Of a stretch of 59,237 bases of DNA, positions 9,462-39,305 are shown one piece after another. A program made the position numbers and the translations under genes. The stretch is from a virus. How positions within the stretch are numbered: position 1 is the stretch's first letter; the number at the start of each line of letters is the position of its first letter. Below the pieces are notes generated by a model. It searched no databases and had not been told where the DNA came from. It saw only the letters and a program-made list of their open reading frames with translations. The DNA lies in the IMG/VR virus record IMGVR_UViG_3300047172_000027, positions 1 through 59,237 of that record; one strand, given 5' to 3'.

Positions 9462-10889
9462 ATGAAATTAAACATAGATGGAGACCCAACAACAGGAAAA
9501 TCTGCTGCTGCATTGGAAAATTCCAAAGCCAATCAAGAAGCAGCTGCTCAAGCCAAACTTAACGCAGAGCTTCAGCCATATGCTCAGCAAACTATTGCAG
9601 ATTTAAATAGCGGAAATTATTCTGGCGCATGGAACGAGGCTTTGCAATCATCGCCGCTGTACAACACGAATTACAGCTCACAGACAACAGATCCTTTGCT
9701 TGCCGATATGGAGTCTGCACAAGGTCTGCAGGAGCTTGATCCAAGCATTCAGTGGAACGCTACAAATACGGCTGCGTATTACAATGCTCTAGGTCAAAAT
9801 CCTGTTTACAGCGGGCAAACGGTCAAGGGGGCGAATGGCGGCACAGAAAGCTTAGGTCAAAATCCGTACGGGGACTGGGGAGCTGGGGCTGCCGTTACCA
9901 ATGGAACAGACGCAAAAGCAAATCTAACGCAGGACCCCAATTCATCCCCCAATGTTTCGCAGTTCGCTGGGGCGAGACCTCGCGCTTCATTTCTTGATAA
10001 ATACGGCGCCGATATTGCGGCAATTGTTGCCACGGTGGCAACCGCTGGGGCTGGAGCACCGGCTCTTGGAGCGGCCCTTGCTGGGTCAGCGGCATCGGAC
10101 CTAGTCAATGGTGCAGAAGGTAAATTAACCCTGAGCGGCGCCCTTGAGGGAGCCGGGATGGCGGCTCTTGGAGCCGCGGTTCCAGGCGCAAGTAGCGCTT
10201 TAAATTCCGCCACAGGAAACGCGCTAGGCACAGTCGGTTCGAACGCGTTAGTGGGCGCCGGGGTTGGTGCGCTTGGGTCAAAGCTAACCGGAGGCAATCC
10301 ATTGGTTGGAGCCATAGGAGGCGGCGCGGGGGGTGCTATACAAGCATCCGGGATAAACAATACAGTCGGGCAGCAAATTAATAGCGCCACCGGACTCCCT
10401 GTATCTGTTGGGGCTGGTTTATCTGGCGGTGCATTAGGCGCAGGGGTTGGCGCTATCACGGGCAGCTTGAGCGGCCAGGGGGCAGCAAATGGCGCCTTAA
10501 TGGGTGGAGTTGGGGGCGCTCTAAGGGCTGGCGTTGGATCGGCAACTGGAAACCAGACCATAGGTAACGTTGCTGGTACAATAGGCAGTGCCCTAGCGGG
10601 CAAATACTTGACGTCTTCCCCGGCGGCTGCTACCGCAGCAGCCGCACCGGCTACTGCTACCGTTGCGGCGGCAAAAACACCTACGCCTGCTGCAACAACT
10701 GCCGCGCAAACAGCACCTGCGCCGACGCCTCTTTTCCAGCAGCCAACCAATATTGGCACGTACAACTTCAACAGCACCGGATTGGGTTACCAGCCAATGA
10801 GCCAGGTTAATCCAGGAATTACCAATTACGCGACTTACGGGCAAGGACCAGAAGCAAACTTCTTTGCCCCCACGCCAGGAACAACATGA
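9462..10889 (+). CDS. Internal virion protein with glycine-zipper region
   Basis: 475 residues. A helical N-terminal third is followed (residues about 185-380) by small-residue Gly/Ala repeats (GAGVGALGSKL, IGGGAGGAI) that look like membrane-inserting glycine zippers, then an Ala/Thr/Pro linker. The last 35 residues contain NYATYGQGPEANFF, closely matched inside the next large protein. Candidate DNA-ejection protein that could form a channel in the host envelope; this role is inference. Confidence 0.6.
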   Translation: MKLNIDGDPTTGKSAAALENSKANQEAAAQAKLNAELQPYAQQTIADLNSGNYSGAWNEALQSSPLYNTNYSSQTTDPLLADMESAQGLQELDPSIQWNATNTAAYYNALGQNPVYSGQTVKGANGGTESLGQNPYGDWGAGAAVTNGTDAKANLTQDPNSSPNVSQFAGARPRASFLDKYGADIAAIVATVATAGAGAPALGAALAGSAASDLVNGAEGKLTLSGALEGAGMAALGAAVPGASSALNSATGNALGTVGSNALVGAGVGALGSKLTGGNPLVGAIGGGAGGAIQASGINNTVGQQINSATGLPVSVGAGLSGGALGAGVGAITGSLSGQGAANGALMGGVGGALRAGVGSATGNQTIGNVAGTIGSALAGKYLTSSPAAATAAAAPATATVAAAKTPTPAATTAAQTAPAPTPLFQQPTNIGTYNFNSTGLGYQPMSQVNPGITNYATYGQGPEANFFAPTPGTT

Positions 10890-10987
10890 GAGAAACGTCC
10901 GGTATAAGGCAACTTGGCGCACTAGGCGACAACATCGAAGGGCTGGAAAAGCTCATTTCTTACCTCCGTCGAGCGGAATCACATTAA
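10886..10987 (+). CDS. 33-residue coupled microprotein
   Basis: Begins in an ATGA overlap with the gene upstream and ends in a TAATG overlap with the gene downstream, which is why it is called despite its length. The sequence (MRETSGIRQLGALGDNIEGL...) predicts one amphipathic helix. It may be a real peptide or simply carry ribosomes to the next gene. Function unknown. Confidence 0.6.
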   Translation: MRETSGIRQLGALGDNIEGLEKLISYLRRAESH

Positions 10988-12444
10988 TGTCGAAACTCAG
11001 AGAAATCTACAAGGGCTCATTCAAAGGGCGTCGTAACAAGCACGACGTGGTAACGGCGTACGACGGCGGATACATGGATTTTTCCACGTCCTCTTTCGAT
11101 CCGAGCACGGTTGTTCCCACGGCGGTTGACACCGGGTACGGCAGCGGCTACAACCCCAGCACCGACCCCAATGTCGCCGGTTACACGGGATCACAAGACA
11201 GCAGCCTTGCGGCGCCCGCGGCCACGGGGCTGGATCAAAATTACCTGTCGACAATCAACGCCGAGCTTGCCGCCGACCCTACCGGAGAAAACGCCGCCGC
11301 CAGTTTTGATAGCAGCAAATCAAAATCTGGCTCATCTTCTGGCTCATCTGCCGCGTCAAGCGCCGCAGGTGGTGCGCTTGGTACGCTACTCAAGGCGCTG
11401 GGTCTTGGGAGCGGAAACACCAGCGCGCAAGGTATCACCGCGCTGGCCGGGCTGCTCTCTGCCGCTGGGCAGTACAAGCAAAACTCCGCGTACGCGCCGA
11501 CGTTTGCGCCGCCCGCGTTATTTGGCGGGACCTCAGGGACCACATCCGGCAACACCGCAGGCATCGCGTCGACCGGGTACGGACCCGCTGGCGGCTACAA
11601 CTACGCCAACTACAAAGGCCTGGTAGCGGGCGCCCCCGGGCTGGGTTACGCGCCGCAGACCGCGACCACGCCCACGATCCCAAATTACTACACCTACGGT
11701 CAGGGTCCGCAGCAGAGCTTTTTCACCACGACGCCGTCGAGCGCCACGCAGCCCACCGCAATGAAAAAAGGCGGCAAGGTCAGCACGCCGCAGCGTTTTG
11801 CCATGGGCGGGTTCAACACCGGCATGATGCCGCCCGTCCACCCCAACATGGGCACGATCACCCCCAGTATGGGGGTGCCTAGCGCCAATCCAATGGCGGG
11901 CGGTATTACGACCAGCGGCCCGTCAAACCCGACCGGCACGCCATCCTTTGGCGCAATGCCCGCGCAACGCGGCGCGCAAGTGCGCCCGGCGGTCCCGGCC
12001 ACAATGCCTCCGCAGCAGACCCACACGCAGCCCATGCCGGGTCGAGCCTTTGCGAATGGCGGCAGCGCCGCGCCTCAAGCGTCGTCCTCGTCGTTTACCA
12101 GCCAGGTGCCTCAAAACCTGTCTGGGGTGCTCTCAGGGATGCGCAAAGCCTCTACCCCTAGTCACGCACCCCCGCTGGCTACGGGCGGCGCCTTGGCCTC
12201 CGTAAGCCGTCACGTCAAGGGTCCGGGGGATGGTACTAATGACAAAATTCCGGCACGCCTATCGCCCGGAGAATTCGTAATTTCTGCGGATGTTGTAAGC
12301 GGCATCGGTAATGGTGACAATGGTGCAGGCGCCAGAAAACTCGATGCGTTTATGAAAAACGTCAGGAAGCACAAAGCAGAAAATGGATCTAAGGGTAAAT
12401 TGCCAGCCAATGCTAGGCCAGTGGCAAGTTATCTAGGGAAGTAG
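10987..12444 (+). CDS. Internal virion protein with GGKV motifs and SPGEFVISADVV domain
   Basis: 485 residues; start at 10987 chosen from the TAATG coupling. Ser/Ala/Gly-rich first half; NYYTYGQGPQQSFF at about residues 226-239 matches the preceding protein; then MKKGGKV, FAMGGF and FANGGSA motifs. Near the C-terminus, GPGDGTNDKIPARLSPGEFVISADVVSGIG is split by no gap and is a module familiar in phage internal or tape-like proteins. Probably packaged in the virion; catalytic function not seen. Confidence 0.6.
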   Translation: MSKLREIYKGSFKGRRNKHDVVTAYDGGYMDFSTSSFDPSTVVPTAVDTGYGSGYNPSTDPNVAGYTGSQDSSLAAPAATGLDQNYLSTINAELAADPTGENAAASFDSSKSKSGSSSGSSAASSAAGGALGTLLKALGLGSGNTSAQGITALAGLLSAAGQYKQNSAYAPTFAPPALFGGTSGTTSGNTAGIASTGYGPAGGYNYANYKGLVAGAPGLGYAPQTATTPTIPNYYTYGQGPQQSFFTTTPSSATQPTAMKKGGKVSTPQRFAMGGFNTGMMPPVHPNMGTITPSMGVPSANPMAGGITTSGPSNPTGTPSFGAMPAQRGAQVRPAVPATMPPQQTHTQPMPGRAFANGGSAAPQASSSSFTSQVPQNLSGVLSGMRKASTPSHAPPLATGGALASVSRHVKGPGDGTNDKIPARLSPGEFVISADVVSGIGNGDNGAGARKLDAFMKNVRKHKAENGSKGKLPANARPVASYLGK

Positions 12445-13652: not shown

Positions 13653-15470
13653 ATGGCTGAGCAAGTCAACAGCATGGGCATTCCACTTGAAGATGCCGAG
13701 CTGGACGATCCAAGTAGCAACATAGACGCCCCTGACCCGTTGCTTGACGAGTCCCCTCGAAGCGGCGCGCTTGCGGCTGTCACTCAAGGTGGCGCACGCC
13801 GAGCGGCCAAAGATCGCTACGACGAGAACAACGCCGAGATGGACGATTTGCGTCAGCAGTACGCAAGCACCGCCAAACAGCAAGCGGACGCGTACGCTCA
13901 GCAGAAAGCGCAAATTGACGCAGCGACCGCGCGCCTCCAGGGCATGCAGGTTGGCCCCAGCGACCAGGAGAAGCTGTACCGTATCGCGGCGGCTGGCGCC
14001 ACACCAAACCACAACGGCGTCGACATCGCCGGGATCAACGCCACGCAGGCCGACGTACTCAAAGAACGGCGCGAAGCGGAGCTGCAAAAGCAAAACCTTC
14101 TCGCTCAGTACGGATTTCAGGGTCCGCAGGCCACCATTGGCGCAACCAATGCAAAGTTGAATCAGCTCACGCAGCAGCAGCGCATCGTCGCCGGTCAGCT
14201 CAACAGCGCAGGCAACCAGCAATTCCGTGGGCAAGCCAACATGCCGTTTGGGTTAACCCAGAACGCCGACGGCTCCGTTTCTGTCGCCCCTGGCATGGAG
14301 CAGTACTGGAACGAAAAATCACTGGCTGCCATGTACGGCAAAGGCTACATGAAGCCGAACCCGGACGGATCTAAGTCCTGGATATCGCTCGCGCCTTTGG
14401 CCGCATCTTTGCAGCGCGGGCAGCAACCGCCTCAGCAAGCGCCGCAACAGGCACCGCAACAGGCACCGCAAACGCCGCCACAGCAAGGTGGGGGAGCAAT
14501 AACTCCTCAAGCACCTCGTCCAGTCGCGGCTGCGGCACCTTCTGCGGCACCGGCAGCAACAGCCCCGCAAATCCCATCCGCACCTACGGCACTCCAAGCG
14601 CCAGCAAAGCCTCTGCCCAGCCCGTATGACGATTTGTTCATACCGTCCACGGTGCTAGACCCGAAATACGGCGCGCTTACGCCTGCAACCAAGCCCGCGT
14701 ACGTTGCCACCGCGGCGCAGGCTTTCGATCCCGCGTACTTCAAAGAGTACCAGTTTCAGGCGAACAATTTTGGCGACATGGATGTTCGCAAAAAAAACCT
14801 GGAGAAAGAAGCCGCCGAGCTTGCGGAAGCGGGCAACAGCGCAAAAAGCGTCATCTACAATTACGGTCAGGCGCTGCATCAAATGGACCAATTGAACGAC
14901 CCGCAGCTTCTCAGCGGACCCGCGGGCGCAAAAATTGGCGCGTTCGAGAACACGCTTCGCGGCGTGCTGCCAGATACCGTAACGCAGCAGCTTTTTAGCG
15001 ACCCAAACCTGAAAAAACTCGCCACTCAACAGGACACAGACAAGTACTTTTTGAACGCGGCGACAACCGGCCTAAAAGCTATTTACGGTGGCCGCATCAC
15101 GAACATGGAAGTGCAGCAACGACTCAAGAGCCTGCCCAGCAATAACCTGCTCCCGGCGGTGACGCGCATGCTAGCCGCGGCGCAGGCCGAGGTCGCTCAA
15201 GATACGGTCAACAAGGGCAAGCTATTTGGCGCTTACGTGCGCAAAGGTGGAGATCCCGCACCGGGAACTTTCAACACCTGGTACGAGGCAAACTTTGACC
15301 CGTTTGGTGAAAGCCGTCTCAAGCAAAATTTGAATCAGCTGCAAACCGTTGCCCCTGCAAAAACCGCCGCACCCGCTGCGCAAAACCCGCTGGTTGCTTA
15401 CTACAGCGGCCCGTACGCCGCCTGGGTTGCTGGCGGTAAAAAAGGCCCGCAACCCCCGAGACCTCGGTAA
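13653..15470 (+). CDS. Internal virion protein with coiled coil and QAPQ repeats
   Basis: 605 residues; ATG at 13653 preceded by AAGGGAG and placed just after the previous stop, rather than an upstream start that would overlap 130 bases. Acidic head, coiled coil (about 55-185), a PQQAPQQAPQ repeat and Ala/Pro linker (about 255-325), then a helical C-terminal domain with repeated NLKKLATQQDTDKYF-type segments. Its TAATG stop couples it to the next gene. Probably an ejection-complex component. Confidence 0.6.
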   Translation: MAEQVNSMGIPLEDAELDDPSSNIDAPDPLLDESPRSGALAAVTQGGARRAAKDRYDENNAEMDDLRQQYASTAKQQADAYAQQKAQIDAATARLQGMQVGPSDQEKLYRIAAAGATPNHNGVDIAGINATQADVLKERREAELQKQNLLAQYGFQGPQATIGATNAKLNQLTQQQRIVAGQLNSAGNQQFRGQANMPFGLTQNADGSVSVAPGMEQYWNEKSLAAMYGKGYMKPNPDGSKSWISLAPLAASLQRGQQPPQQAPQQAPQQAPQTPPQQGGGAITPQAPRPVAAAAPSAAPAATAPQIPSAPTALQAPAKPLPSPYDDLFIPSTVLDPKYGALTPATKPAYVATAAQAFDPAYFKEYQFQANNFGDMDVRKKNLEKEAAELAEAGNSAKSVIYNYGQALHQMDQLNDPQLLSGPAGAKIGAFENTLRGVLPDTVTQQLFSDPNLKKLATQQDTDKYFLNAATTGLKAIYGGRITNMEVQQRLKSLPSNNLLPAVTRMLAAAQAEVAQDTVNKGKLFGAYVRKGGDPAPGTFNTWYEANFDPFGESRLKQNLNQLQTVAPAKTAAPAAQNPLVAYYSGPYAAWVAGGKKGPQPPRPR

Positions 15471-17434
15471 TGGCAAACGATACGGACTTACTTGCGGCCT
15501 TAAAGGCCGCGCATGACGCCGGGGATGACGAGGCGGCGGCGGCTATTGCCGCGCAAATGTCGGCGCAACCGGTGACGCATGAACCGGTCAAACAACCGGA
15601 CACGTTGACCATTACTCCATCAGATCCATCAGAGCAACCAGGTGGCGAGCACTGGATGGAAAAATACGGCCCGACGTCAGGTATGAGCGGGCTGGATAAA
15701 TTTCGTGCGGGAATTGGTCAATCTTTTGTTGACACCGGGCGAGGAATATCGCAATTATTTGGTGGTCAATCCAAGTCGGACACCGACGAGCAGCGCCGAT
15801 TAGACGCGCCCCTCGACAGGACCGGCGCTGGATTGGCCGGTAACATCCTGGGAGGCGTGGCGCAATCCGCGTTGCCCGGGTTGGGCGCCGAGGCAGCAGG
15901 CGCAAAGATCGCCTCAGGGCTTGCGACAAGTCCCGGCGCGCTGCAGGCCGCGCAGGCCATTTACCGCATCGCGCGTCCCGCCGCAACCGGCGCCGCGTAC
16001 GGAGCGTTAGCACCAGTCGGAAGCAATGAGACGCGCGCAGGGAACGCCGGTCTGGGCGCCGCTGCGGGTGAGGTCGGTCAGGTGCTGGGTAACGCGGGCG
16101 CGAATGTGCTGCGCTCCGGTGAGGATGCGCTTACAGCTGGCGCTCGCAAAGGCGCCGACATCGCCCGCAAGTACGGCATTCCGTTAAGTATGCCGCAGCT
16201 CGCAGGCAAATTTACCGGTTTCGTTGGGGACACGCTTGATAAACTGCCGTTCAGCGGTGCGAGCGACCGACGAGACGCGCAGCGAAGCGCATTCAATGAC
16301 GCGCTGGGTCGTACCGCCGGAATACCAAACGCGCAAGGCGCGATCAACACCGACATGGTTGACCACGCGCGAGACACCGTAGGCAGCGCCATTGGCAACA
16401 TGGCGAGCAACCGTGTCGCGCTTGTTACCCCGAAACAAGTTCAAGGTGTCACGCAGCTTCTGCAGGACGTGAATGACGTCTCGACGCCTGAGACGGCGCG
16501 CGTAGTCAACAACTACGCCAACAAAATGTTCGGTATGGGCGCGTCCGGTCCTTCCAAAGTCATCCCCATCAACAATGCGCTTCCCGGCGGACCCATCGCG
16601 CAAATACCTGGCGACGCTTGGCGCGAACAGAACACACAAATCGGGAACCACATCCGCAGGCTTGGGCCAAACGACGGCGACCTGAAGTACTACCTGGGCG
16701 AGCTGCAAGACCATTACATGGATACTATGCAGAACGCGATGTCGCCCGAAGAATTCAATCAATTCCAAAGTTTGCGCGGGCAATACCGCAACAATCGAAC
16801 CATCGCCCCGCTTGCTGAAAAAGCAGGCGACGAAGGTATCAACCCGTTGCTGGTGCAAGCGAGAGCTATTTCGGCCAAAAACAACCGCGGCGACGTTGGA
16901 GAGCTTGGGGATTTTGCCAAGTCAATGCTCGCCAAAAAATACCCGGACAGCGGCACCGCGCAACGCGCGCTGATGTACTCCGCGATTACCGGCGGATTGG
17001 GCGCTGGGGCTGGCGCGTTACTAGACGACGAAAATCACGGCACGGGCGCGGCATATGGAGCGCTCCCTGGCGCGGCGATGATCGCTGGCGGGTTGGCCGG
17101 TCGAGGTCTGAATTCTCAGGCGCTCAGTCGGTTGTATCAGGCGCGCATGCCGGAGCCTGTTGCGGGCACGATTCGAGACCTGGCGGCTCGTAGCCCGGTT
17201 GCGGCGCAGCGCGCGGAGCAAGTAATCGCGCCACAGGAAGGATACGCAGACGGCGGCGAAGTCAAAAAATCAACCTTCTGGGATCTTGTGCAGCAAGCTG
17301 TCAAAGAGCTAGCTTCACCCAGCACCAATGCACCGCCCACGCCGACACCAGCACCCGGCACAGTAGCATCAGGCAGTGTAGGCCAAGACTTTGACAATAA
17401 GGTGAACCAAGCCGTGCAAGGCGCCGGTGGTTAG
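15470..17434 (+). CDS. Large internal virion protein with C-terminal YADGGEV motif
   Basis: 654 residues, Ala/Gly-rich and mostly helical. Small-residue zippers occur at about 110-200 and 500-560 (LGAGAGALLDDENHG), flanking a long soluble region. YADGGEVKKSTFWDLVQQAV near residue 590 is the same motif class found in the GGK and polyvalent proteins. Ends in a low-complexity Pro/Thr/Ala tail. Last gene of the plus-strand virion block before a 130-base gap. Confidence 0.6.
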   Translation: MANDTDLLAALKAAHDAGDDEAAAAIAAQMSAQPVTHEPVKQPDTLTITPSDPSEQPGGEHWMEKYGPTSGMSGLDKFRAGIGQSFVDTGRGISQLFGGQSKSDTDEQRRLDAPLDRTGAGLAGNILGGVAQSALPGLGAEAAGAKIASGLATSPGALQAAQAIYRIARPAATGAAYGALAPVGSNETRAGNAGLGAAAGEVGQVLGNAGANVLRSGEDALTAGARKGADIARKYGIPLSMPQLAGKFTGFVGDTLDKLPFSGASDRRDAQRSAFNDALGRTAGIPNAQGAINTDMVDHARDTVGSAIGNMASNRVALVTPKQVQGVTQLLQDVNDVSTPETARVVNNYANKMFGMGASGPSKVIPINNALPGGPIAQIPGDAWREQNTQIGNHIRRLGPNDGDLKYYLGELQDHYMDTMQNAMSPEEFNQFQSLRGQYRNNRTIAPLAEKAGDEGINPLLVQARAISAKNNRGDVGELGDFAKSMLAKKYPDSGTAQRALMYSAITGGLGAGAGALLDDENHGTGAAYGALPGAAMIAGGLAGRGLNSQALSRLYQARMPEPVAGTIRDLAARSPVAAQRAEQVIAPQEGYADGGEVKKSTFWDLVQQAVKELASPSTNAPPTPTPAPGTVASGSVGQDFDNKVNQAVQGAGG

Positions 17435-17513: not shown

Positions 17514-17565
17514 GGTCATCTCCTGTTAAGATGACCCAATCTACTGCGTCTTGAAGGTAAAGTCA

Positions 17566-18087
17566 ATGTTTGACCGCATAATCGACTTCTTCTTCCAGTT
17601 CGCAAGTTTGTTTCAATTTTGGGTGATTTTGGAGCCGTATGACGAAGGCGTGCGCCTGAGGCTAGGAAAGCAGCACGGTGGCCCGCTGAGATGCGGGTTG
17701 CACTGGAAAATACCGTTCAAGGTCGACCAAATCCTGACGCTGCAGGTGGTCCCTTCGACGCACAGCCTGGGCGACGAAAGCGTGATGACAAAAGATGGGA
17801 AGTCCATCACGTTTCACGCGATTATAACTTTTCAGATCAGCGACATCGAGAAAGCTCTTCTCAAAGTTCATGACGTAGATCACGCTGTGAGAGATAGCTG
17901 CTCCGGTGAGGTGGGTCGCGTATTGCGCGAAAGCACATGGGATGAGATATTGAAAGATGACATTCTCGATAAGCTGACCGCGGCCTGCCGAAAAAAGGGC
18001 TGGCGCTGGGGGTTGGAGATCATGTCGGTGCAGCTTGCCGGGTTGTCTATCGCGCGCAATATTCGTCTCATGAACAGTAGCAGGTAA
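17566..18087 (+). CDS. SPFH/Band-7 (stomatin/prohibitin-like) domain protein
   Basis: 173 residues. A hydrophobic N-terminal anchor (about 5-25), then EPYDEGVRLRLGKQHGG, GLHWKIPF, and the conserved sequence VMTKDGKSITFHAIITFQI with the Arg-rich RDSCSGEVGRVLREST stretch typical of Band-7 domains such as HflK/HflC and prohibitin. Such proteins form membrane rings that hold proteases or scaffold lipids. GAAGGT precedes the ATG; an in-frame TTG 15 bases earlier is less likely. One base separates it from the metallophosphatase gene. The role in the phage is unknown. Confidence 0.8.
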   Translation: MFDRIIDFFFQFASLFQFWVILEPYDEGVRLRLGKQHGGPLRCGLHWKIPFKVDQILTLQVVPSTHSLGDESVMTKDGKSITFHAIITFQISDIEKALLKVHDVDHAVRDSCSGEVGRVLRESTWDEILKDDILDKLTAACRKKGWRWGLEIMSVQLAGLSIARNIRLMNSSR

Positions 18088-18088
18088 A

Positions 18089-19219
18089 ATGTCAAACACA
18101 CCCGATGAACGTTCAGTCAAGATCGCTAAACTCCACGCCAAGGGCCTTTCCCAAAGGGAAATAGCCAAAAAACTCGGCATCGCGCAAAGCACCGTCTCGG
18201 AGCGCCTCAAAAAAGTAGGCGGCTCATTCCCCGCACCAGACGGGCATTACGTCAAAGCAACCTCCACCCTTTACAGCCCAGACGGCGAGATCAAGCTTCA
18301 GTGGGTGAAATCTAGCCTAGATGAAGAGGCGCGTCAAGCAGCAGAGAAGGCCGCATTTGCGGCACTGTGCGAGACGCTGCCACGGTATGTGCCGACCAAC
18401 GGCCCCGGGCACACCGACGCGGAGCTTGCGAACCTGTACGTGTTTACAGATTGTCACGTAGGCATGCTGGCATGGGGCAAGGAAACCGGGGACGACTGGG
18501 ACACGGGAATCGCTGAGCGCACGCTGATTCGAACTTTCGAGGCAATGATCGCGGGCAGCCCCAAGGCGCGGGTTGCTATAATTGGGCAGATGGGGGATTT
18601 TTTGCATTTTGACGGTTTACTGGCCGTTACCCCCACATCCAAGCACGTACTTGACGCCGACAGCCGATTCTCAAAAATTGTCAAGATCGCGATACGGGTG
18701 CTGCGGTACATCATCGACATGGCGCTTCTCAATCACGAGGAGGTCCACGTCGTCATGGCGGACGCGAATCACGACCCGGCGAGCCAGGTTTGGCTGCGGC
18801 ACATGTTCACCGCGCTGTACGAGAACGAGCCGCGCGTCAAGGTCAACGACAGCGAAAAGCCTTTCTATGCGTACCAGCACGGCGAAACCATGATCGGGTT
18901 TCACCACGGGCACACGCTGAAAAAAGAAAAGCTCCCGCTGCTGCTTGCCACGCTGTACCCCAAGATGTGGGGCAACACGCTCAAGCGATACTGCCACACC
19001 GGTCATCTGCACACGGTGGACGAGGTCGAGGCCAACGGCATGAAGATCGTGCAGCATCCCACTATTGCCGCCAAGGACGCGTACGCGGTTCGTAACGGCT
19101 GGGTAAGTCAGCGACAAGCATCATGCATTACCTATCACCAGTCTTATGGCGAAGTCGGTCGCACCGTCGTCTGCCCCGAGATGTTCGAGACAATTAATGG
19201 ACCCACAAACCCTCATTGA
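18089..19219 (+). CDS. HTH plus calcineurin-like metallophosphoesterase
   Basis: 376 residues. An N-terminal HTH (GLSQREIAKKLGIAQSTVS, about 20-40) is joined to a metallophosphoesterase with the full motif set: D121-x-H123 (TDCHVG), GD170, N227-H228 (ADANHD), H273-x-H275 and GH306-L-H308. This fusion is known in several phages; the phosphatase half resembles SbcD/Mre11-type nucleases, so DNA or nucleotide phosphodiester cleavage is possible, but the substrate is unknown. Its last 23 bases overlap the giant gene that follows. Confidence 0.8.
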   Translation: MSNTPDERSVKIAKLHAKGLSQREIAKKLGIAQSTVSERLKKVGGSFPAPDGHYVKATSTLYSPDGEIKLQWVKSSLDEEARQAAEKAAFAALCETLPRYVPTNGPGHTDAELANLYVFTDCHVGMLAWGKETGDDWDTGIAERTLIRTFEAMIAGSPKARVAIIGQMGDFLHFDGLLAVTPTSKHVLDADSRFSKIVKIAIRVLRYIIDMALLNHEEVHVVMADANHDPASQVWLRHMFTALYENEPRVKVNDSEKPFYAYQHGETMIGFHHGHTLKKEKLPLLLATLYPKMWGNTLKRYCHTGHLHTVDEVEANGMKIVQHPTIAAKDAYAVRNGWVSQRQASCITYHQSYGEVGRTVVCPEMFETINGPTNPH

Positions 19220-22200
19220 CAAATACCGCGGCGTTCTTGGGCTTACCGGGCACGCCGCTCAGTCCACCGCAGCGAACATCGCGGGCGGACTTGTGGGCCT
19301 TGGAAACCTTCCCAGAGGCATAGACGCCGCTGAGTCTGCCCGTCAGCTGATTACCGACAAGCTTTCCCCAGGAGAACCCGACTCGCAAACCATTGGCCTG
19401 ATACGGGACATCGCCCCGGCCTACCTGGCCGCGGCGCGCAGCCCGGTCGCCAAGGCGGCGCACGCCGTCGGGGACGCGTACGACAAAAGCGTCGACACCT
19501 ACGCCGACTTAGCGTCGCGCTACCTGGGCGCCCCGGCTGGGGGTGAGGTGGCCGCATTGGGCGCCGCGCTGCCAAACGCCGCCTTTCCTGAATCAAAAGC
19601 CGCCAAAGCCACCGAGTACGCCGCCCCCGCCGCCGAATTGCTGAGCAAGTACCCGGCGACCCCGGTGCTGCCAGACGGCTCGACCCTGCGCACGCTGGCC
19701 CGTGAGGGCGCCGCAAACGCCCGCAGAGCCGACGAAGGCTTACCCCCTCCCGATGTGCTCGCAAGCGATTTCGCAGGCAGGCAGGCCGCGCACGAGGGCG
19801 CCGTGGCGCAACGTAACGCGGACCCGGCGTACATCAAGGCCAAGGTACCGGCCACGAGCGTAGACCCGTCATTGTACCCATCTAGTTTTAGCCCGCCGGA
19901 CAACGCGGAGGCGTACGTCGCCATGGATCCGCAAACCGGGCAGCACATCGGGCATGTGACGTTCGTCAAGCGCGGTGACGGCGTATCCAGCTTGCGCATG
20001 GACGTCGCCCCCACTTATCAGGGGCAGGGCATCGGCAGCGACTTGCTGAATGACGCCATTGCAAACGCGCACGACCAGGGCCTGCCGTACCGGTCAGACA
20101 CTCAGGTAAGTGTTCCGGCAGCCAAAACTTACAGCAAGCTTCCCGGGGCGATCCGCAACGAGGACGTGGATCACATGATTGACCCGAATGACGGTCACGT
20201 CGGGGTATCCAGCAACGGTCGCGCGGTGTTTGAGATTCCGCCGAGTGCGGATGCGGACGACGCGACACCGGACGAGATGCCGCACTTCAACCCGAACAGC
20301 TACATCGGCAGCCAGGCGTACGCCGAGGGCGGTGAGGTTGCGCCTGCATTGGGGGACATTGGCGACCTGATTGCGCGCTACGCAACCAAACCGCTGCCCG
20401 GGTTACCTGCCAAGGTGCAGGTGCCGGGAGTTGGCGGACTAGAGGTTGGTCCAAACCCCAAAATCCGCCAGGTAGCGCAAAATTACATGGACGAGGTCGG
20501 AATCAAAAACCCGCCTCAGCCCATTTACGCCAAGGCCGACCCGGTGCGCGGTAAAGCGATTGCCGCCGCCTACGACGCCGCGCAGCACAACCCCAGCGAC
20601 CCGGACGTCAAGGCCTCGTACGACGCGCTTATCAAGGAAACCTTGGCGCAGTATCAGCACATCAAAAACGCAGGACTTAAGGTAGATCTTATTCAGCCCG
20701 GTCAGGCTGACCCGTACGCCGCCTCGCCGCGACTCGCGGTAGAGGATATCAACCGCAACAACCACATGTGGGTATTCCCGACGTCAAGCGGATTCGGTAC
20801 CGAGGGCGCGGCGCCGATGGATCACCCACTGCTGGCGGATAGCGGCGAAACAATTAGCGGGCAACCCGCAACCGCGAACGACATTTTTCGGGTAGTTCAC
20901 GATTATTTTGGGCACGCCAAGGAAGGAGTCGGATTTCGCGCCGATGGCGAAGAGAACGCCTGGAATCAGCACGCGCGCATGTACTCGGATCTAGCCAAAC
21001 CGGCGATGACCGCAGAGACGCGCGGGCAGAACAGCTGGGTGAACTTTGGTCCTCACGCCGACGCGAACAAAGGCGCGAGCGCCGCCAGCACCGTGTACGC
21101 ACCGCAGAAGGCTGTCATTTTGCCGGATGTTTACAATGATCCCGACGCCGGACGGACGATGGATTTTTTGCACATGTCCAACCTGACAGACCCGCAGGTT
21201 ACGCTTGACCCTGCGGCGTACGGCACAGGCATGAAAGGCGCTGAGGCGCGCAGGGGCGGAACCAAAACCATCAGCCTGTACCCTGCGAACATAGACCCCA
21301 AGGATATCGAGCTGCCGCTGCAAGGAAAAACACCGTACCGTGTCTCGGTTCCCGCGAGCCAGATGTACGACATGTCGAACGATCCGCTAGGATACCGCTC
21401 GATAACGCCCAGCTACAGCGACGCCGAGGACGCCATCAGGGGTGCGGGATGGGCCGGGTATTACACACCGGATCACGAAGACCCAAGACAGCGCGGGCAG
21501 GCGCGGCTGTTTGTGCCGACGACCGCGACACGCCTTGACCCCATTGACGCGCCCGGGCCAACGAAAGCCGCCGCAGCGAAAAGCAGCGGCTTGTACGACG
21601 ACACACTGGACACCTCAGATTTCTCTACCGGTGGCCTGGTTCAAAAATACGCCGACGGAGGTGAGGCAGCGGTCGCGCTCGATGATGTCGCAAACCTTAT
21701 CGCCAAGTACGGCAAAGATGCCGCCCCAGCGCAAGCGGAGCATCTCGCGAATGCGGTCTCCGAGAACGGCTCCGCTACCTACAACCCAACCACCGGAGAC
21801 GTCCACAGCAGCGGCTACGCCGTTCCGCACGATATTAGCCGCAGTGTCGCCCTAGACGCGCCGCCTACCGCGGGCGACATCCATGACTTCATGCTGCAAA
21901 ACCAGGACGCATTCGACAACCCGAAGGCGGCAGTTCACGTCGAGAGCGACGGTAACGGCAATCACTTCATCCACGTCGCTCACGTCGAGCCAGATTTTGA
22001 TAGCGCAATGGCTGCCGCCAAGGCATTCGACGCGCCGGGAGTACGCGAGCTTCATACTGGCAACAATTTTCCTGCTGATGGTCCCGCCGGGATCAGCGAT
22101 GATGCGGATACGGGGATAGAGGATTACTTGGCGGGATCAAAGATACCAGAGACAAACCTACCGGCGGAACTGGACACAGAGCGCAATCAGAGACCAAGGA

Positions 22201-23306
22201 CGGCGTGGAAATATGGGAAGCCAACGGTTGATCCTGCGCAACGGGTGGCTTTTCCGGGGATCTACAATGATCCTCGTCAGGTGATTCAGGATGCGAATTC
22301 AATGGTTGGTCCAGAAGAACCTCTGCTTGAGAGATTATTCGGCGTAAATCGTCAAGATCTATCCGACATCGCATTAGGTCGGCAAGGAAACGAAATCGGG
22401 ACTCTTCCTGGGGCAAAGCCTGGATCGACTGGAGCCGCCTCAGCGCGAGCAGTAATGACTCCGCAGAACGAGCAGCGTCTGATAGACGTTCTGAACGAAG
22501 CTCGTGGAACGCCGTTACACACGGGTATGACTGGTTGGTATTCAATGGACCCTCTCTATGAAAGATTTAGGCAAATATTTGGTGACGAGGACGCGCCAGC
22601 TAAGTACCAGCAATTCAATACTCTTTCTGGAATGGCGTCTCCGGGGTCAGACGTGGGAACTGAGATTGCGCGGGGGACATCTGCAAATTGGCTGCAAAAC
22701 CAGGGACGCTTTGCTGATTTCCTAAAGTACTCTGGGGTTGCAAACGATGAGCGGGCAGGGATTCGCGATTACCCTCAGGATATTCTCGATGTTCCTGGGC
22801 ATGCGTACCACAAGACGGCGCATGCTCTGCCAATGAGCCAGTACCTGTCTTCTGGTGAGATCCAGATGAAGTCCCCGAAGGTTCCAATGTACATTGGGGC
22901 ATCAGGGGTACCAGAGACTGGATTTCAATCAGATATGCCAGTAGGCGACGCCCACTGGGCGCGCGGAGTAGGTCTAGCCGATACCCGGAACCCTCGCACT
23001 TTGAAAGGAGAAAGCATCGTCCCGGGTTCGTCGGCATCGACTCCAGAAATGCAGACACTTGGTCCTTGGTGGCGAGATCGGGTGGCAGCTCAAGCCGGAT
23101 ATGGAGCCGTTCCAGCTCAGGCGACCGCTTGGGGGGTTTTCGCGCCGTATACAGGCGTAACATCCAACATAGGGGCGCCGAAACTAGAGATACTATCGAC
23201 TCAGATAGGAAAACTAGCCCAACGGCTAGGGGTATCACCAGAAACAGCCAGGGATCTTGTGATCCAGGGTAAAGCAGGGGCGTACTCATCAGGAGGCTCC
23301 GTCTAG
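19197..23306 (+). CDS. Giant polyvalent-type virion protein: GNAT, HDYFGH and ART-like domains
   Basis: 1369 residues from the ATG at 19197. Helical Ala-rich head (1-200); GNAT acetyltransferase-like domain about 235-320 with PTYQGQGIGSDLL (motif A); YAEGGEV at 375; a helical domain (445-620) with NDIFRVVHDYFGH (His568, His573), GEENAW and TAETRGQNSWVNFG (Glu607), reminiscent of the two-His-one-Glu iron site of aromatic amino acid hydroxylases; an ADP-ribosyltransferase-like segment 653-780 (FLHMSN, DPAAYGTGMKGAE); YADGGEA at 818; an alpha/beta domain (885-960); a long C-terminal domain (1040-1355) of unknown type; and YSSGGSV as the last residues. Polyvalent proteins of phages are packaged and delivered to counter host defences; that role here is inference. 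Confidence 0.75.
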   Translation: MDPQTLIDKYRGVLGLTGHAAQSTAANIAGGLVGLGNLPRGIDAAESARQLITDKLSPGEPDSQTIGLIRDIAPAYLAAARSPVAKAAHAVGDAYDKSVDTYADLASRYLGAPAGGEVAALGAALPNAAFPESKAAKATEYAAPAAELLSKYPATPVLPDGSTLRTLAREGAANARRADEGLPPPDVLASDFAGRQAAHEGAVAQRNADPAYIKAKVPATSVDPSLYPSSFSPPDNAEAYVAMDPQTGQHIGHVTFVKRGDGVSSLRMDVAPTYQGQGIGSDLLNDAIANAHDQGLPYRSDTQVSVPAAKTYSKLPGAIRNEDVDHMIDPNDGHVGVSSNGRAVFEIPPSADADDATPDEMPHFNPNSYIGSQAYAEGGEVAPALGDIGDLIARYATKPLPGLPAKVQVPGVGGLEVGPNPKIRQVAQNYMDEVGIKNPPQPIYAKADPVRGKAIAAAYDAAQHNPSDPDVKASYDALIKETLAQYQHIKNAGLKVDLIQPGQADPYAASPRLAVEDINRNNHMWVFPTSSGFGTEGAAPMDHPLLADSGETISGQPATANDIFRVVHDYFGHAKEGVGFRADGEENAWNQHARMYSDLAKPAMTAETRGQNSWVNFGPHADANKGASAASTVYAPQKAVILPDVYNDPDAGRTMDFLHMSNLTDPQVTLDPAAYGTGMKGAEARRGGTKTISLYPANIDPKDIELPLQGKTPYRVSVPASQMYDMSNDPLGYRSITPSYSDAEDAIRGAGWAGYYTPDHEDPRQRGQARLFVPTTATRLDPIDAPGPTKAAAAKSSGLYDDTLDTSDFSTGGLVQKYADGGEAAVALDDVANLIAKYGKDAAPAQAEHLANAVSENGSATYNPTTGDVHSSGYAVPHDISRSVALDAPPTAGDIHDFMLQNQDAFDNPKAAVHVESDGNGNHFIHVAHVEPDFDSAMAAAKAFDAPGVRELHTGNNFPADGPAGISDDADTGIEDYLAGSKIPETNLPAELDTERNQRPRTAWKYGKPTVDPAQRVAFPGIYNDPRQVIQDANSMVGPEEPLLERLFGVNRQDLSDIALGRQGNEIGTLPGAKPGSTGAASARAVMTPQNEQRLIDVLNEARGTPLHTGMTGWYSMDPLYERFRQIFGDEDAPAKYQQFNTLSGMASPGSDVGTEIARGTSANWLQNQGRFADFLKYSGVANDERAGIRDYPQDILDVPGHAYHKTAHALPMSQYLSSGEIQMKSPKVPMYIGASGVPETGFQSDMPVGDAHWARGVGLADTRNPRTLKGESIVPGSSASTPEMQTLGPWWRDRVAAQAGYGAVPAQATAWGVFAPYTGVTSNIGAPKLEILSTQIGKLAQRLGVSPETARDLVIQGKAGAYSSGGSV

Positions 23307-35791: not shown

Positions 35792-35874
35792 TGCTGCGCG
35801 TGATCGCTGTCTGTCTTTGGTTTACGGGCAATCCCCAGGCCGCGCTGTGGTGCTTTTTGTTGCAATGGGTCTGA
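35791..35874 (+). CDS. 27-residue hydrophobic peptide
   Basis: Starts in the TGATG overlap. MLRVIAVCLWFTGNPQAALW... is hydrophobic with two Cys and three Trp. Called only for its coupling; it could be translated by reinitiation. Confidence 0.35.
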   Translation: MLRVIAVCLWFTGNPQAALWCFLLQWV

Positions 35875-35888
35875 TGGGGATAAAAGAA

Positions 35889-35919
35889 AACCCGGGTCCA
35901 TGGGGAAATGGCCCGGGTT
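35889..35919. terminator. Strong GC-rich hairpin at the end of the replication operon
   Basis: AACCCGGG-T-CCAT, loop GGGGAA, ATGG-CCCGGGTT: 12 base pairs with one bulge. Downstream on the plus strand only ATTCGT follows, but on the minus strand the hairpin is followed by TTTTCTTTTA. It probably ends or stabilises the operon transcript, and could stop antisense reads more efficiently. It separates the replication genes from the GH5 gene. Confidence 0.6.
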
Positions 35920-35993
35920 ATTCGTACCGCTCGACTGGCGGCGTCTCAGGTGGGATGCTGCAGCGAGTACCATTGTATCACAAGGGGAATTTG

Positions 35994-37646
35994 ATGACGA
36001 TTACAATTGGCGCCGCCGACCTGGCCGCATTGAACGCCGGGCAGCCCGTTACGCTGCAGGGCGCCACGGTTCCGAAGCCAAACCCGCTTACTATATCGGG
36101 ATTTTCACCAAATACGGGCGGCATCGGCACGCAGTTCGTCATTAACGGCACCGGATTTACGGGTGCCACGGGCGTCAAGATCGGCGGATTGACTTTCCCG
36201 CCTACCAAGATCGTCTCGGATTCGCAACTAGTAGCCACCGTCCCCGCGGGCGCGGTAACCGGCAACATCGCGGTTTTGAACGCGACCACCACGGCATTCG
36301 ATAACAGCCTGTTTGCGGTGACCGCAGTGGCTGCGCCGCCGCCGGTCACGACGCCTCCTGTAACAACGCCGCCGGTCATCCCGGGCAGCGGATTGACGCC
36401 GAGCACCAGCGTCCCGGCGCGCACGATTACGCCGCTGACGCCGCCCGCTGGCATGAAGTCGATTACTGTCAAGGGCAAGGATTTTGTCGACGGCAACGGC
36501 AACGTCGTGGTGCTGAATGGCGTGAACCTTACGGGCTTAGAGAACACCGCGATCCAGGGCTGGGACGGCTCGAATTATTGGGGTGATTCAGGATTCCCCG
36601 GTCTGCCGCCGGTTGCGCTTTTGAAACTGTGGAACGTCAACTTTGTGCGCGTGCCGTACAACAGCTCAAGCGTGCTTGGAACGGTGTGCGTCGACGGCAC
36701 CGGCAAGAAAATCATACCCGCCGACCCTGCAGGCATTTACTTCAGCATCATGGACCAGATGATGATGACGTACACCGCCGCCGGTCTGTACATCGAGTTG
36801 GAGGAGCACTGGAACGCGCCGTTTCTGAAGACCATTCCTGGCTACCCCAATGGGGCGTTTCTTGCTCCCGAGGGGCAGGGGCAGTTTTCCGACGCGCAAA
36901 CAAGTGCGCCCGCGGCGGCTCAGCTCGCGCAGCGATACAAGAATTTCAAGAACCTTTTGATGGGCTGCTTCAACGAGCCTGACCTGGACGGCTTTGGTCC
37001 GACGGTTCCGGCGGACGTAGGAGTTTGCCAGCGGGACGGCGGCACCTGCGCGCGGTTCATCAATAACACCGACGCCGGGGCGGATTACACCATCACCGAG
37101 ACCTGGGAGGTGTGCGGGTTCCAGACAAAAATCAACGCGATACGGAACGCCGGGTTCACTGGGCCGATATCGGTATCAGACCGCAACTGGGCGCAAGACT
37201 TGTCCGCGTGGCTTAAGTACAAGCCCACCGACCCATTGAACAACATATTCGCCGACTGGCATTTTTACCCGGACAACGGGCAGCCGTTCAACTCCGCGGC
37301 GTACGCTCTCGGTAACTTTGGCGCGCCAGGGTCACAGAGCGCGACATCCGGCGTCACCGGTACGTGTTACGAGTGGGCGCAAAACATCCTGGCCGCTGGG
37401 TACCCTGTGTTCATCACCGAATACGGTGGTCAGAACAGCGCGGGCAGCCCGCCGGATAACTTCGTGGCCGGGGCGCTGGCGTTTGCCAAGGCAAACGGCA
37501 TCAGCACCGCCGCCTGGGCGTTCTGCGTCACCGGCTCGGCGAACAACAACCTGCTGAAGAACACCAACGGCGACCCGTGCGACGGCTTCCCGCTTCAGGT
37601 AAAGGCCTACCTGACCAGTTTGCCGCCCGTAGCATATAGCAGTTGA
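35994..37646 (+). CDS. IPT/TIG domain fused to GH5-family glycoside hydrolase
   Basis: 550 residues, AAGGGGAATTTG before the ATG. Residues about 30-110 form an IPT/TIG beta sandwich (LTISGFSPNTGGIGTQFVI), followed by a PPVTTPPVTTPPV linker and a catalytic domain (about 155-545). GVNLTGLEN, GLYIELEEHW, the acid/base in CFNEPD (Glu328) and the nucleophile in FITEYGG (Glu476) are the GH5 cellulase signature. No signal peptide, and the gene is far from the tail block. Likely cleaves a beta-1,4-type polysaccharide, possibly host capsule or biofilm. Confidence 0.85.
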   Translation: MTITIGAADLAALNAGQPVTLQGATVPKPNPLTISGFSPNTGGIGTQFVINGTGFTGATGVKIGGLTFPPTKIVSDSQLVATVPAGAVTGNIAVLNATTTAFDNSLFAVTAVAAPPPVTTPPVTTPPVIPGSGLTPSTSVPARTITPLTPPAGMKSITVKGKDFVDGNGNVVVLNGVNLTGLENTAIQGWDGSNYWGDSGFPGLPPVALLKLWNVNFVRVPYNSSSVLGTVCVDGTGKKIIPADPAGIYFSIMDQMMMTYTAAGLYIELEEHWNAPFLKTIPGYPNGAFLAPEGQGQFSDAQTSAPAAAQLAQRYKNFKNLLMGCFNEPDLDGFGPTVPADVGVCQRDGGTCARFINNTDAGADYTITETWEVCGFQTKINAIRNAGFTGPISVSDRNWAQDLSAWLKYKPTDPLNNIFADWHFYPDNGQPFNSAAYALGNFGAPGSQSATSGVTGTCYEWAQNILAAGYPVFITEYGGQNSAGSPPDNFVAGALAFAKANGISTAAWAFCVTGSANNNLLKNTNGDPCDGFPLQVKAYLTSLPPVAYSS

Positions 37647-38395: not shown

Positions 38396-38514
38396 AAAAA
38401 TACATTTTTTTGCCAACGGTCGCGCCTATAGCCGCGCCGTTTGGATGCCGGGTGTTGAGCGTACTTGCGAGCGCAAACGATAATACATCAAAGGAAAATG
38501 AGACAAACACATGA
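38392..38514 (+). CDS. 40-residue coupled small protein
   Basis: Joined to both neighbours by ATGA overlaps. MKKYIFLPTVAPIAAPFGC resembles a short signal or lipoprotein-like N-terminus; the tail is polar (NDNTSKENETNT). Not recognised. Confidence 0.55.
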   Translation: MKKYIFLPTVAPIAAPFGCRVLSVLASANDNTSKENETNT

Positions 38515-39305
38515 AATACGAATTTACTGGTGAGACGAAAGATTTTAACGGCATCACGCTGAAACGTATTCGCGCGGTAACCGCCTTTGGCGCTATCGCG
38601 GTGGGTACCGTTGGCGGATGGATTCAAAGCGAAAATAACCTGGAGCAGGTCTGCGGCAATGCGTGGGTCTACGGCGATGCGTGGGTCTACGGCGATGCGC
38701 GGGTCTACGGCGATGCGCAGGTCTGCGGCGATGCGCAGGTCTACGGCGATGCGCAGGTCTGCGGCGATGCGCAGGTCTACGGCAATGCGTGCGTCTACGG
38801 CAATGCGCGGGTCTACGGCGATGCGCAGGTCTGCGGCGATGCGCAGGTCTACGGCAATGCGCAGGTCTACGGCAATGCGCAGGTCTGCGGCGATGCGCAG
38901 GTCTACGGCGATGCGCAGGTCTACGGCGATGCGGGGGTCTACGGCGATGCGCAGGTCTGCGGCGATGCGCAGGTCTACGGCGATGCGCAGGTCTGCGGCG
39001 ATGCGCAGGTCTACGGCAATGCGTGCGTCTACGGCAATGCGCGGGTCTACGGCAATGCGGATTTGCTGCTTATTGGACCTATTGGATCGCGCCGCGCGTA
39101 CCTTACGGTGCACGCCGATTCAAAGCTGTCGGTACGCTACTCGACCGGATGCTTTAGCGGCACTAGAGCGCAGCTTGTGGCAGCGGTTAAGAAAACCCAC
39201 AAGCCGTCGACGCTGTACGCCAAACAATATGCGGCGGCGCTGGCAGCGGCCAAGATTTGCGTCAATGGATTGAAAATCCCTAAGCAAGTGAAGGATGAAA
39301 AATGA
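38511..39305 (+). CDS. Hexapeptide-repeat protein, left-handed beta-helix likely
   Basis: 264 residues. An N-terminal beta domain (about 1-45), then 23 perfect six-residue units of type [QRWCG]-V-[YC]-G-[DN]-A (residues 46-183), then a C-terminal domain (185-264) with YLTVHADSKLSVRYSTGCF. Units with one hydrophobic residue every six positions make left-handed beta-helices; similar repeat proteins occur in phages and bacteria without known function. Some units carry Cys in place of Tyr. GGAAAATGAGACAAACAC precedes the start. Confidence 0.75.
   Translation: MKYEFTGETKDFNGITLKRIRAVTAFGAIAVGTVGGWIQSENNLEQVCGNAWVYGDAWVYGDARVYGDAQVCGDAQVYGDAQVCGDAQVYGNACVYGNARVYGDAQVCGDAQVYGNAQVYGNAQVCGDAQVYGDAQVYGDAGVYGDAQVCGDAQVYGDAQVCGDAQVYGNACVYGNARVYGNADLLLIGPIGSRRAYLTVHADSKLSVRYSTGCFSGTRAQLVAAVKKTHKPSTLYAKQYAAALAAAKICVNGLKIPKQVKDEK
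38646..39059 (+). repeat. 18-bp tandem repeat, 23 units
   Basis: 414 bases made of 23 copies of an 18-base unit (type GTCTACGGCGATGCGCAG). Units 5-10 (38718-38825) and 18-23 (38952-39059) are near identical over 108 bases, so the array grew by segmental duplication as well as by unit copying. All frames are open through it, which makes antisense readings here meaningless. Confidence 0.95.

Follow-up and report, generated by a model that had tools for sequence, protein, structure and literature searches.

A phage polyvalent-type protein with a widespread, probably catalytic HDYFGH domain and a recurrent DUF7178-superfamily partner

Polyvalent proteins are multi-domain proteins that are thought to enter the cell by injection together with the viral DNA. 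The locus studied here raises the question of whether a large phage gene joining several unrelated domains encodes a protein of this kind and, if so, what its domain marked by the motif HDYFGH might do in an infected cell. The window, by which we mean the whole stretch of DNA that was analysed, is an entire virus record of 59,237 bases whose start and end are identical over 22 bases. Genes for a terminase, a portal, a capsid, an SU10-type adaptor, an endolysin and a holin were recognised in it, and the capsid protein shows 79% identity to those of Caulobacter phages RW, GB2A, RLK and KcrB. The genome is podovirus-like, that is, of a short-tailed phage, and complete-looking. We also considered whether the window might stem from a prophage or a bacterium, and rejected this because the window is a virus record with 22-bp identical ends and a full structural module. 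Elsewhere in this genome, the ORF at 35817-37646 (609 aa) encodes a cellulase domain of family GH5 (Pfam E 5e-24), and a repeat protein with a YdcK-type beta-solenoid is encoded at 38511-39305.

The gene in question is the final one of the late operon, in which the following genes precede it:

15470..17434, + strand: DNA-ejection protein (PHROG 26400, E 2.4e-29), with the linker motif EGYADGGEVKK at aa 592
17551..18087, + strand: Band_7/SPFH-domain protein (Pfam PF01145, E 7.2e-17), just before the metallophosphoesterase gene
18089..19219, + strand: HTH plus metallophosphoesterase/exonuclease (PHROG 704), overlapping the start of the polyvalent-type gene
19197..23306, + strand: polyvalent-type gene, 1369 aa plus stop, one open frame with a full-length homologue, L002

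The 1369-residue gene of the original prediction is thus a single open frame on the + strand. Starting at 19146 instead would lengthen the product to 1386 aa, but the sequence conserved in L002, a homologue that has all the modules at 71% identity, begins at the 19197 start. The late operon of Caulobacter phage RW is syntenic, with the structural genes in identical order, and, since the polyvalent protein found no match in a comparison with eleven RW late proteins, its gene seems to be an accessory module.

The modules of the protein sit between linkers of the YA[DE]GG type and are arranged along the chain as follows:

19197..19871, + strand: N-terminal region (aa 1-225), poorly conserved, with phmmer matches only in L001 and L002
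19902..20141, + strand: GNAT acetyltransferase domain (aa 236-315), Pfam PF13508 (Acetyltransf_7) at E 2.2e-7 and PF00583 at E 1e-6, each exceeding the cut-off
20319..20339, + strand: linker YAEGGEV (aa 375-381)
20409..21140, + strand: HDYFGH domain (aa 405-648), PHROG 3170, AlphaFold pLDDT 94.4
21144..21566, + strand: putative ART-like segment (aa 650-790), pattern H-S ... YGTG.KGAE..R ... DAG.AGY, without a Pfam match
21621..21668, + strand: linkers FSTGGLV and YADGGEA (aa 809-824)
21681..22151, + strand: repeat module R5 (aa 829-985), with a second copy in L001 and L003 and also forming the C-terminal half of Sebata gp107
22224..23303, + strand: C-terminal domain R6 (aa 1010-1369), all-helical, placed by hhalign in the DUF7178 superfamily as a divergent member, AlphaFold pLDDT 94.3
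23283..23303, + strand: C-terminal YSSGGSV, starting at aa 1363

An acetyltransferase-like domain had been predicted, and by profile membership the assignment of aa 236-315 to GNAT is certain, the Pfam match scoring 31.6 bits against a curated cut-off of 27. The ADP-ribosyltransferase-like label given earlier to aa 653-780 fared less well, as no Pfam ART model matches in the protein; the isolated segment aa 650-790 has no match to any Pfam model, ART-PolyVal (PF18760) included. The segment may be ART-like. It is present as a module in 15 of the 82 non-redundant HDYFGH ORFs, and in L056 a partial ART-PolyVal match lies directly C-terminal to the HDYFGH domain. While L002 has the full set of modules, the homologue L001 (7971-11753) has no HDYFGH module and, where that module would be, another copy of R5, and L003 has an additional R5 copy between GNAT and HDYFGH; judged by these arrangements, modules are swapped among relatives as whole units. 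R5-type sequences also occur alone: in L073, L077, L080 and L083, a solo R5-type ORF lies upstream of a solo HDYFGH ORF, at a distance of several kilobases and on the same contig.

The YA[DE]GGE-type linkers and the terminal YSSGGSV of the original prediction were located at aa 375, 809, 818 and 1363. A plain residue shuffle of the polyvalent protein alone, with four linkers observed against 0.8 expected, is insufficient by itself to show that they are not due to chance. Chance was nevertheless rejected as their origin, because a YA.GG-type pattern defined a little more tightly has no occurrence among 51,021 antisense-frame residues of the relatives but recurs in homologous virion proteins. 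The motif YA[DE]GG is found near the C-terminus of the phage's own ejection protein (aa 592), and the homologues of that protein in L001 and L002 have MA[DE]GG. The sequences suggest that the linker motif may be a common processing or packaging signal; a literature search on the YADGG motif found nothing relevant. As a separate observation, a YADGGEV-type motif is common to the polyvalent protein, the DNA-ejection protein (15470-17434) and a tape-measure-like protein (10864-12444), and the homologues in L001 and L002 keep it.

The most conserved module of the protein is the HDYFGH domain. It matches PHROG 3170, a family of unknown function (E 2.6e-15, aa 425-617), but no Pfam or NCBIfam model, and a literature search on it found nothing relevant. 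Three lines describe its key segments:

20898..20915, + strand: HDYFGH motif (aa 568-573), with His568, Asp569 and His573 invariant
20949..20972, + strand: GluX6His segment with Glu585 and His592, both invariant in 83 homologues
21015..21035, + strand: ETRGQNS (aa 607-613), in which the 83 aligned sequences all keep Glu607, Arg609, Gly610, Gln611 and Ser613

The motif and its residues His568, His573 and Glu607 lie where they had originally been placed, and all three residues are invariant in the 83 aligned homologues, which reach down to 34% identity. Twenty positions in this alignment are fully invariant, among them, besides the residues listed above, Gln485, Tyr507, Asp517, Asn561, Arg565, Asn616 and Lys638. 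His568, Asp569, His573, Glu585, His592, Glu607 and Gln611 are kept in Streptomyces phage Dagobah and mycobacteriophage Sebata, and Arg609 is replaced by Lys in the latter. In the AlphaFold model of the domain (pLDDT 94.4, pTM 0.92), His568 and His573 lie in helix 156-170 (domain numbering), Glu585 and His592 in helix 177-189 and Glu607 in helix 197-213, so that the His568/His573/Glu607 set occupies helices that neighbour each other in sequence. A Foldseek search of the PDB with the model gave no significant match, and the domain profile gave spurious matches only among PDB sequences (e.g. streptopain, E 0.14). Among viral models, Foldseek returned the domain's own family and otherwise just some small phage proteins that carry no annotation. 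Four BFVD entries of 159-192 aa (A0A7S5VJN5, A0A516LES9, A0A8T8IVH9 and A0A160SYH7) show weak similarity to the HDYFGH fold (TMt 0.54-0.64); going by these models, they are possible distant members of the family.

A fold without a characterised neighbour in the PDB might be taken to indicate that HDYFGH serves for binding or has a structural role and catalyses nothing. We consider this quite unlikely, given that the invariant positions fall mainly on His, Asp, Glu, Arg, Gln and Lys, a pattern typical of enzymes, and that a bacterial operon pairs HDYFGH with an NAD-binding enzyme. We favour instead the view that HDYFGH is a new, undescribed and widespread domain family that is probably catalytic.

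Checking the first 600 stretches listed as matches in viral contigs confirmed at least 593 relatives, against 26 loci in genome contigs, and HDYFGH is thus much commoner in viral contigs. The relatives are found in phages and in contigs linked to proteobacteria, cyanobacteria and actinobacteria, in chains of 188 to over 4,000 aa that include both solo genes and polyvalent modules. Other domains carried by relatives include ART-PolyVal, LPD23, LPD38, MuF, Zeta toxin, T7-type RNA polymerase (to which HDYFGH is fused in L010) and metallopeptidase. About 187 mycobacteriophage records encode the domain, and M. smegmatis is the host in almost all of them, which makes the role of the domain directly testable in mycobacteriophages. 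Actinobacterial plasmids carry versions of 410-470 aa. In Enterovibrio (L116:6790-9126), HDYFGH is a solo gene in a small operon whose other members are a gene related to that for S-adenosylhomocysteine hydrolase and DUF3293; a BD1-7 clade bacterium (L117:6786-9257) has HDYFGH, an S-adenosylhomocysteine-hydrolase-like gene and DUF3293 in a fused form. Gene content of the S-adenosylhomocysteine-hydrolase-like operon suggests a small-molecule role for at least some members of the family.

Solo HDYFGH genes in bacterial chromosomes and actinobacterial plasmids would fit a protein that acts inside the producing cell as a late enzyme or assembly factor and is neither packaged nor injected. This explanation appears rather unlikely to us in view of the operon position near ejection proteins, the common linker motif and the polyvalent architecture of the relatives. 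The same features uphold the polyvalent-type classification made originally: disparate domains stand in one chain (GNAT, HDYFGH, a DUF7178-like domain and R5), the gene lies at the end of the late operon behind the ejection protein with which it has a linker in common, and the relatives of HDYFGH are connected to the network of typical polyvalent domains through ART-PolyVal, LPD23, LPD38, MuF and RNA polymerase. Packaging, injection and any protection of the DNA are what we infer only.

What chemistry the HDYFGH domain might perform is a harder question. The original prediction compared His568, His573 and Glu607 to the iron site of the aromatic amino acid hydroxylases. This likeness stood in so far as the HxxxxH and the later Glu are invariant, but the similarity is limited to HD.FGH, with no significant profile or fold match. 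Bacterial phenylalanine hydroxylases (for example L127 and L128) have HD[VL]FGH at the corresponding site. When the HDYFGH profile was aligned with that of the hydroxylases by hhalign, the match (prob 12%, P 0.0024) covered 9 columns around HD.FGH and scored 28.9, compared with a maximum of 24.9 in 150 column shuffles and with 11.1-19.4 for unrelated profiles in an equal set-up, a comparison that is not an independent test because the HD.FGH motif itself prompted it. No match to PF00351, the Pfam family of these hydroxylases, was found in the polyvalent protein. The tryptophan hydroxylases TPH2 and TPH1 appear at ranks 11 and 44 of the weak Foldseek list from the PDB, with values below significance (E 2.9 and 5.3, prob 0.01-0.02, TM 0.15-0.16).

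HDYFGH could accordingly be imagined as a distant relative or analogue of the aromatic amino acid hydroxylases, which would hold a mononuclear non-haem iron at His568/His573/Glu607 and hydroxylate a host side chain or base. The equal HxxxxH spacing with its later Glu, the motif in L127 and L128, the score above all 150 shuffles and the presence of TPH2 and TPH1 in the weak list speak for this, as does the helix/strand order of the model, which we take to be compatible with the hydroxylase core. We still regard such a relationship as unlikely, since the profile match spans so few columns at so low a probability, the structural matches are not significant, and a 2-His-1-Glu site alone does not explain the invariant Glu585 and His592. 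We treat the hydroxylase likeness as a motif held in common and not as membership of the family.

A further clue comes from the C-terminal domain R6, which the original prediction left unassigned. It can be assigned, by hhalign, to the DUF7178 superfamily (prob 84, P 7.2e-6; the Viterbi alignment spans 177 columns), and the conserved pair takes part in the match:

22878..22949, + strand: invariant Lys1228 and Asp1251 of R6, aligned with the invariant K/D pair of DUF7178

The Pfam DUF7178 model itself (PF23802) gave no match on R6, which is, on this profile relation, a divergent member of the superfamily. Neither a comparison of the DUF7178 profile with the PDB nor a literature search on DUF7178 found anything relevant. 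A DUF7178-superfamily partner accompanies HDYFGH in 31 of the 82 non-redundant loci (26 in the same ORF, 5 in a neighbouring gene), and 51 are without one. In the reverse search from R6, HDYFGH was present at 21 of 80 loci (same ORF 9, another, mostly adjoining, ORF 12), counts that do not represent independent events because the 80 loci are partly interrelated. This recurrent association offers a concrete lead on the working partner of HDYFGH.

The nature of the partner leads to another possible reading, in which HDYFGH and DUF7178/R6 would work as a pair that modifies or excises DNA bases and R6 would be glycosylase-like (resembling HhH-GPD enzymes or the 5-PmdU glycinyltransferase), with Lys1228 and Asp1251 as catalytic residues. 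The AlphaFold model of R6 is all-helical, and its highest TM in the Foldseek PDB list belongs to the phage 5-PmdU glycinyltransferase 8z2n (TM 0.35/0.41, E 2.0), with an 8-oxoguanine glycosylase at rank 8 (E 0.86), neither being significant. The invariant K...D is present in both R6 and DUF7178, presumably with a spacing close to that of the HhH-GPD catalytic pair, and HDYFGH is fused or adjacent to R6/DUF7178. However, hhalign of DUF7178 with HhH-GPD glycosylases gave no signal above shuffles, a weak negative because the 19-sequence reference set was partly mis-framed, and among the window genes scanned none was recognised as a thymidine-hypermodification gene. We hold such a base-modifying pair to be a tentative possibility and, with no direct profile signal from that partly mis-framed set, keep the glycosylase-like reading of R6 as a lead.

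As a whole, the locus is best explained, with a probability that we put somewhat above even, by a late, packaged and injected polyvalent protein centred on a probably metal-dependent HDYFGH enzyme domain. Independent enzyme-like modules would be produced late on one chain, and the polyvalent protein would most likely be packaged beside the ejection proteins and enter the cell with the DNA. HDYFGH itself would be a probably metal-dependent enzyme with His568, Asp569, His573, Glu585, His592, Glu607 and Gln611 as the likely catalytic set. Because it commonly stands beside a DUF7178-superfamily domain, we propose that the two act jointly and would, in a cell that has just been infected, modify or process some target related to nucleic acids, whereas GNAT would act separately from this pair. 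Metal binding, catalysis and the target, too, we infer only. Observations that weigh against this explanation are the missing match among the eleven RW late proteins compared, the 51 HDYFGH loci that show no DUF7178-superfamily partner and the small-molecule role suggested by the cellular operon. A far more specific version, in which HDYFGH founds a new mononuclear iron monooxygenase superfamily with a hydroxylase-related fold or active site and, once injected by the phage and paired with a glycosylase-like DUF7178 domain, modifies nucleic acid or protein within minutes of the start of infection, is a long shot. The main result is an unnamed domain, widespread and highly conserved, that is probably catalytic and repeatedly has a partner from the DUF7178 superfamily.

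Compared with the phage polyvalent proteins described by Iyer et al. (2017, PMC5512222), the protein is similar in its large size, unrelated modules, late-gene position and GNAT domain, and in having relatives with ART-PolyVal, LPD23, LPD38, MuF, RNA polymerase and metallopeptidase domains. It differs in that HDYFGH and R6 match no LPD domain held in Pfam and in that the metallopeptidase module was not found here. With the aromatic amino acid hydroxylases (PF00351), HDYFGH has in common an HD.FGH-type motif and a downstream Glu, but the similarity stops at the motif and no significant profile or fold match accompanies it. R6 is related to Pfam DUF7178 (PF23802) over 177 profile columns that include the invariant Lys and Asp, although it is longer, has diverged and is missed by the Pfam model. 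PHROG 3170 matches the HDYFGH domain (E 2.6e-15, aa 425-617), which is here one module of a larger chain. Finally, gp107 of mycobacteriophage Sebata (Bixzunavirus, 433 aa) has just two of the modules, at about 32% identity, but these follow each other as HDYFGH and then R5, and its gene lies among head genes.
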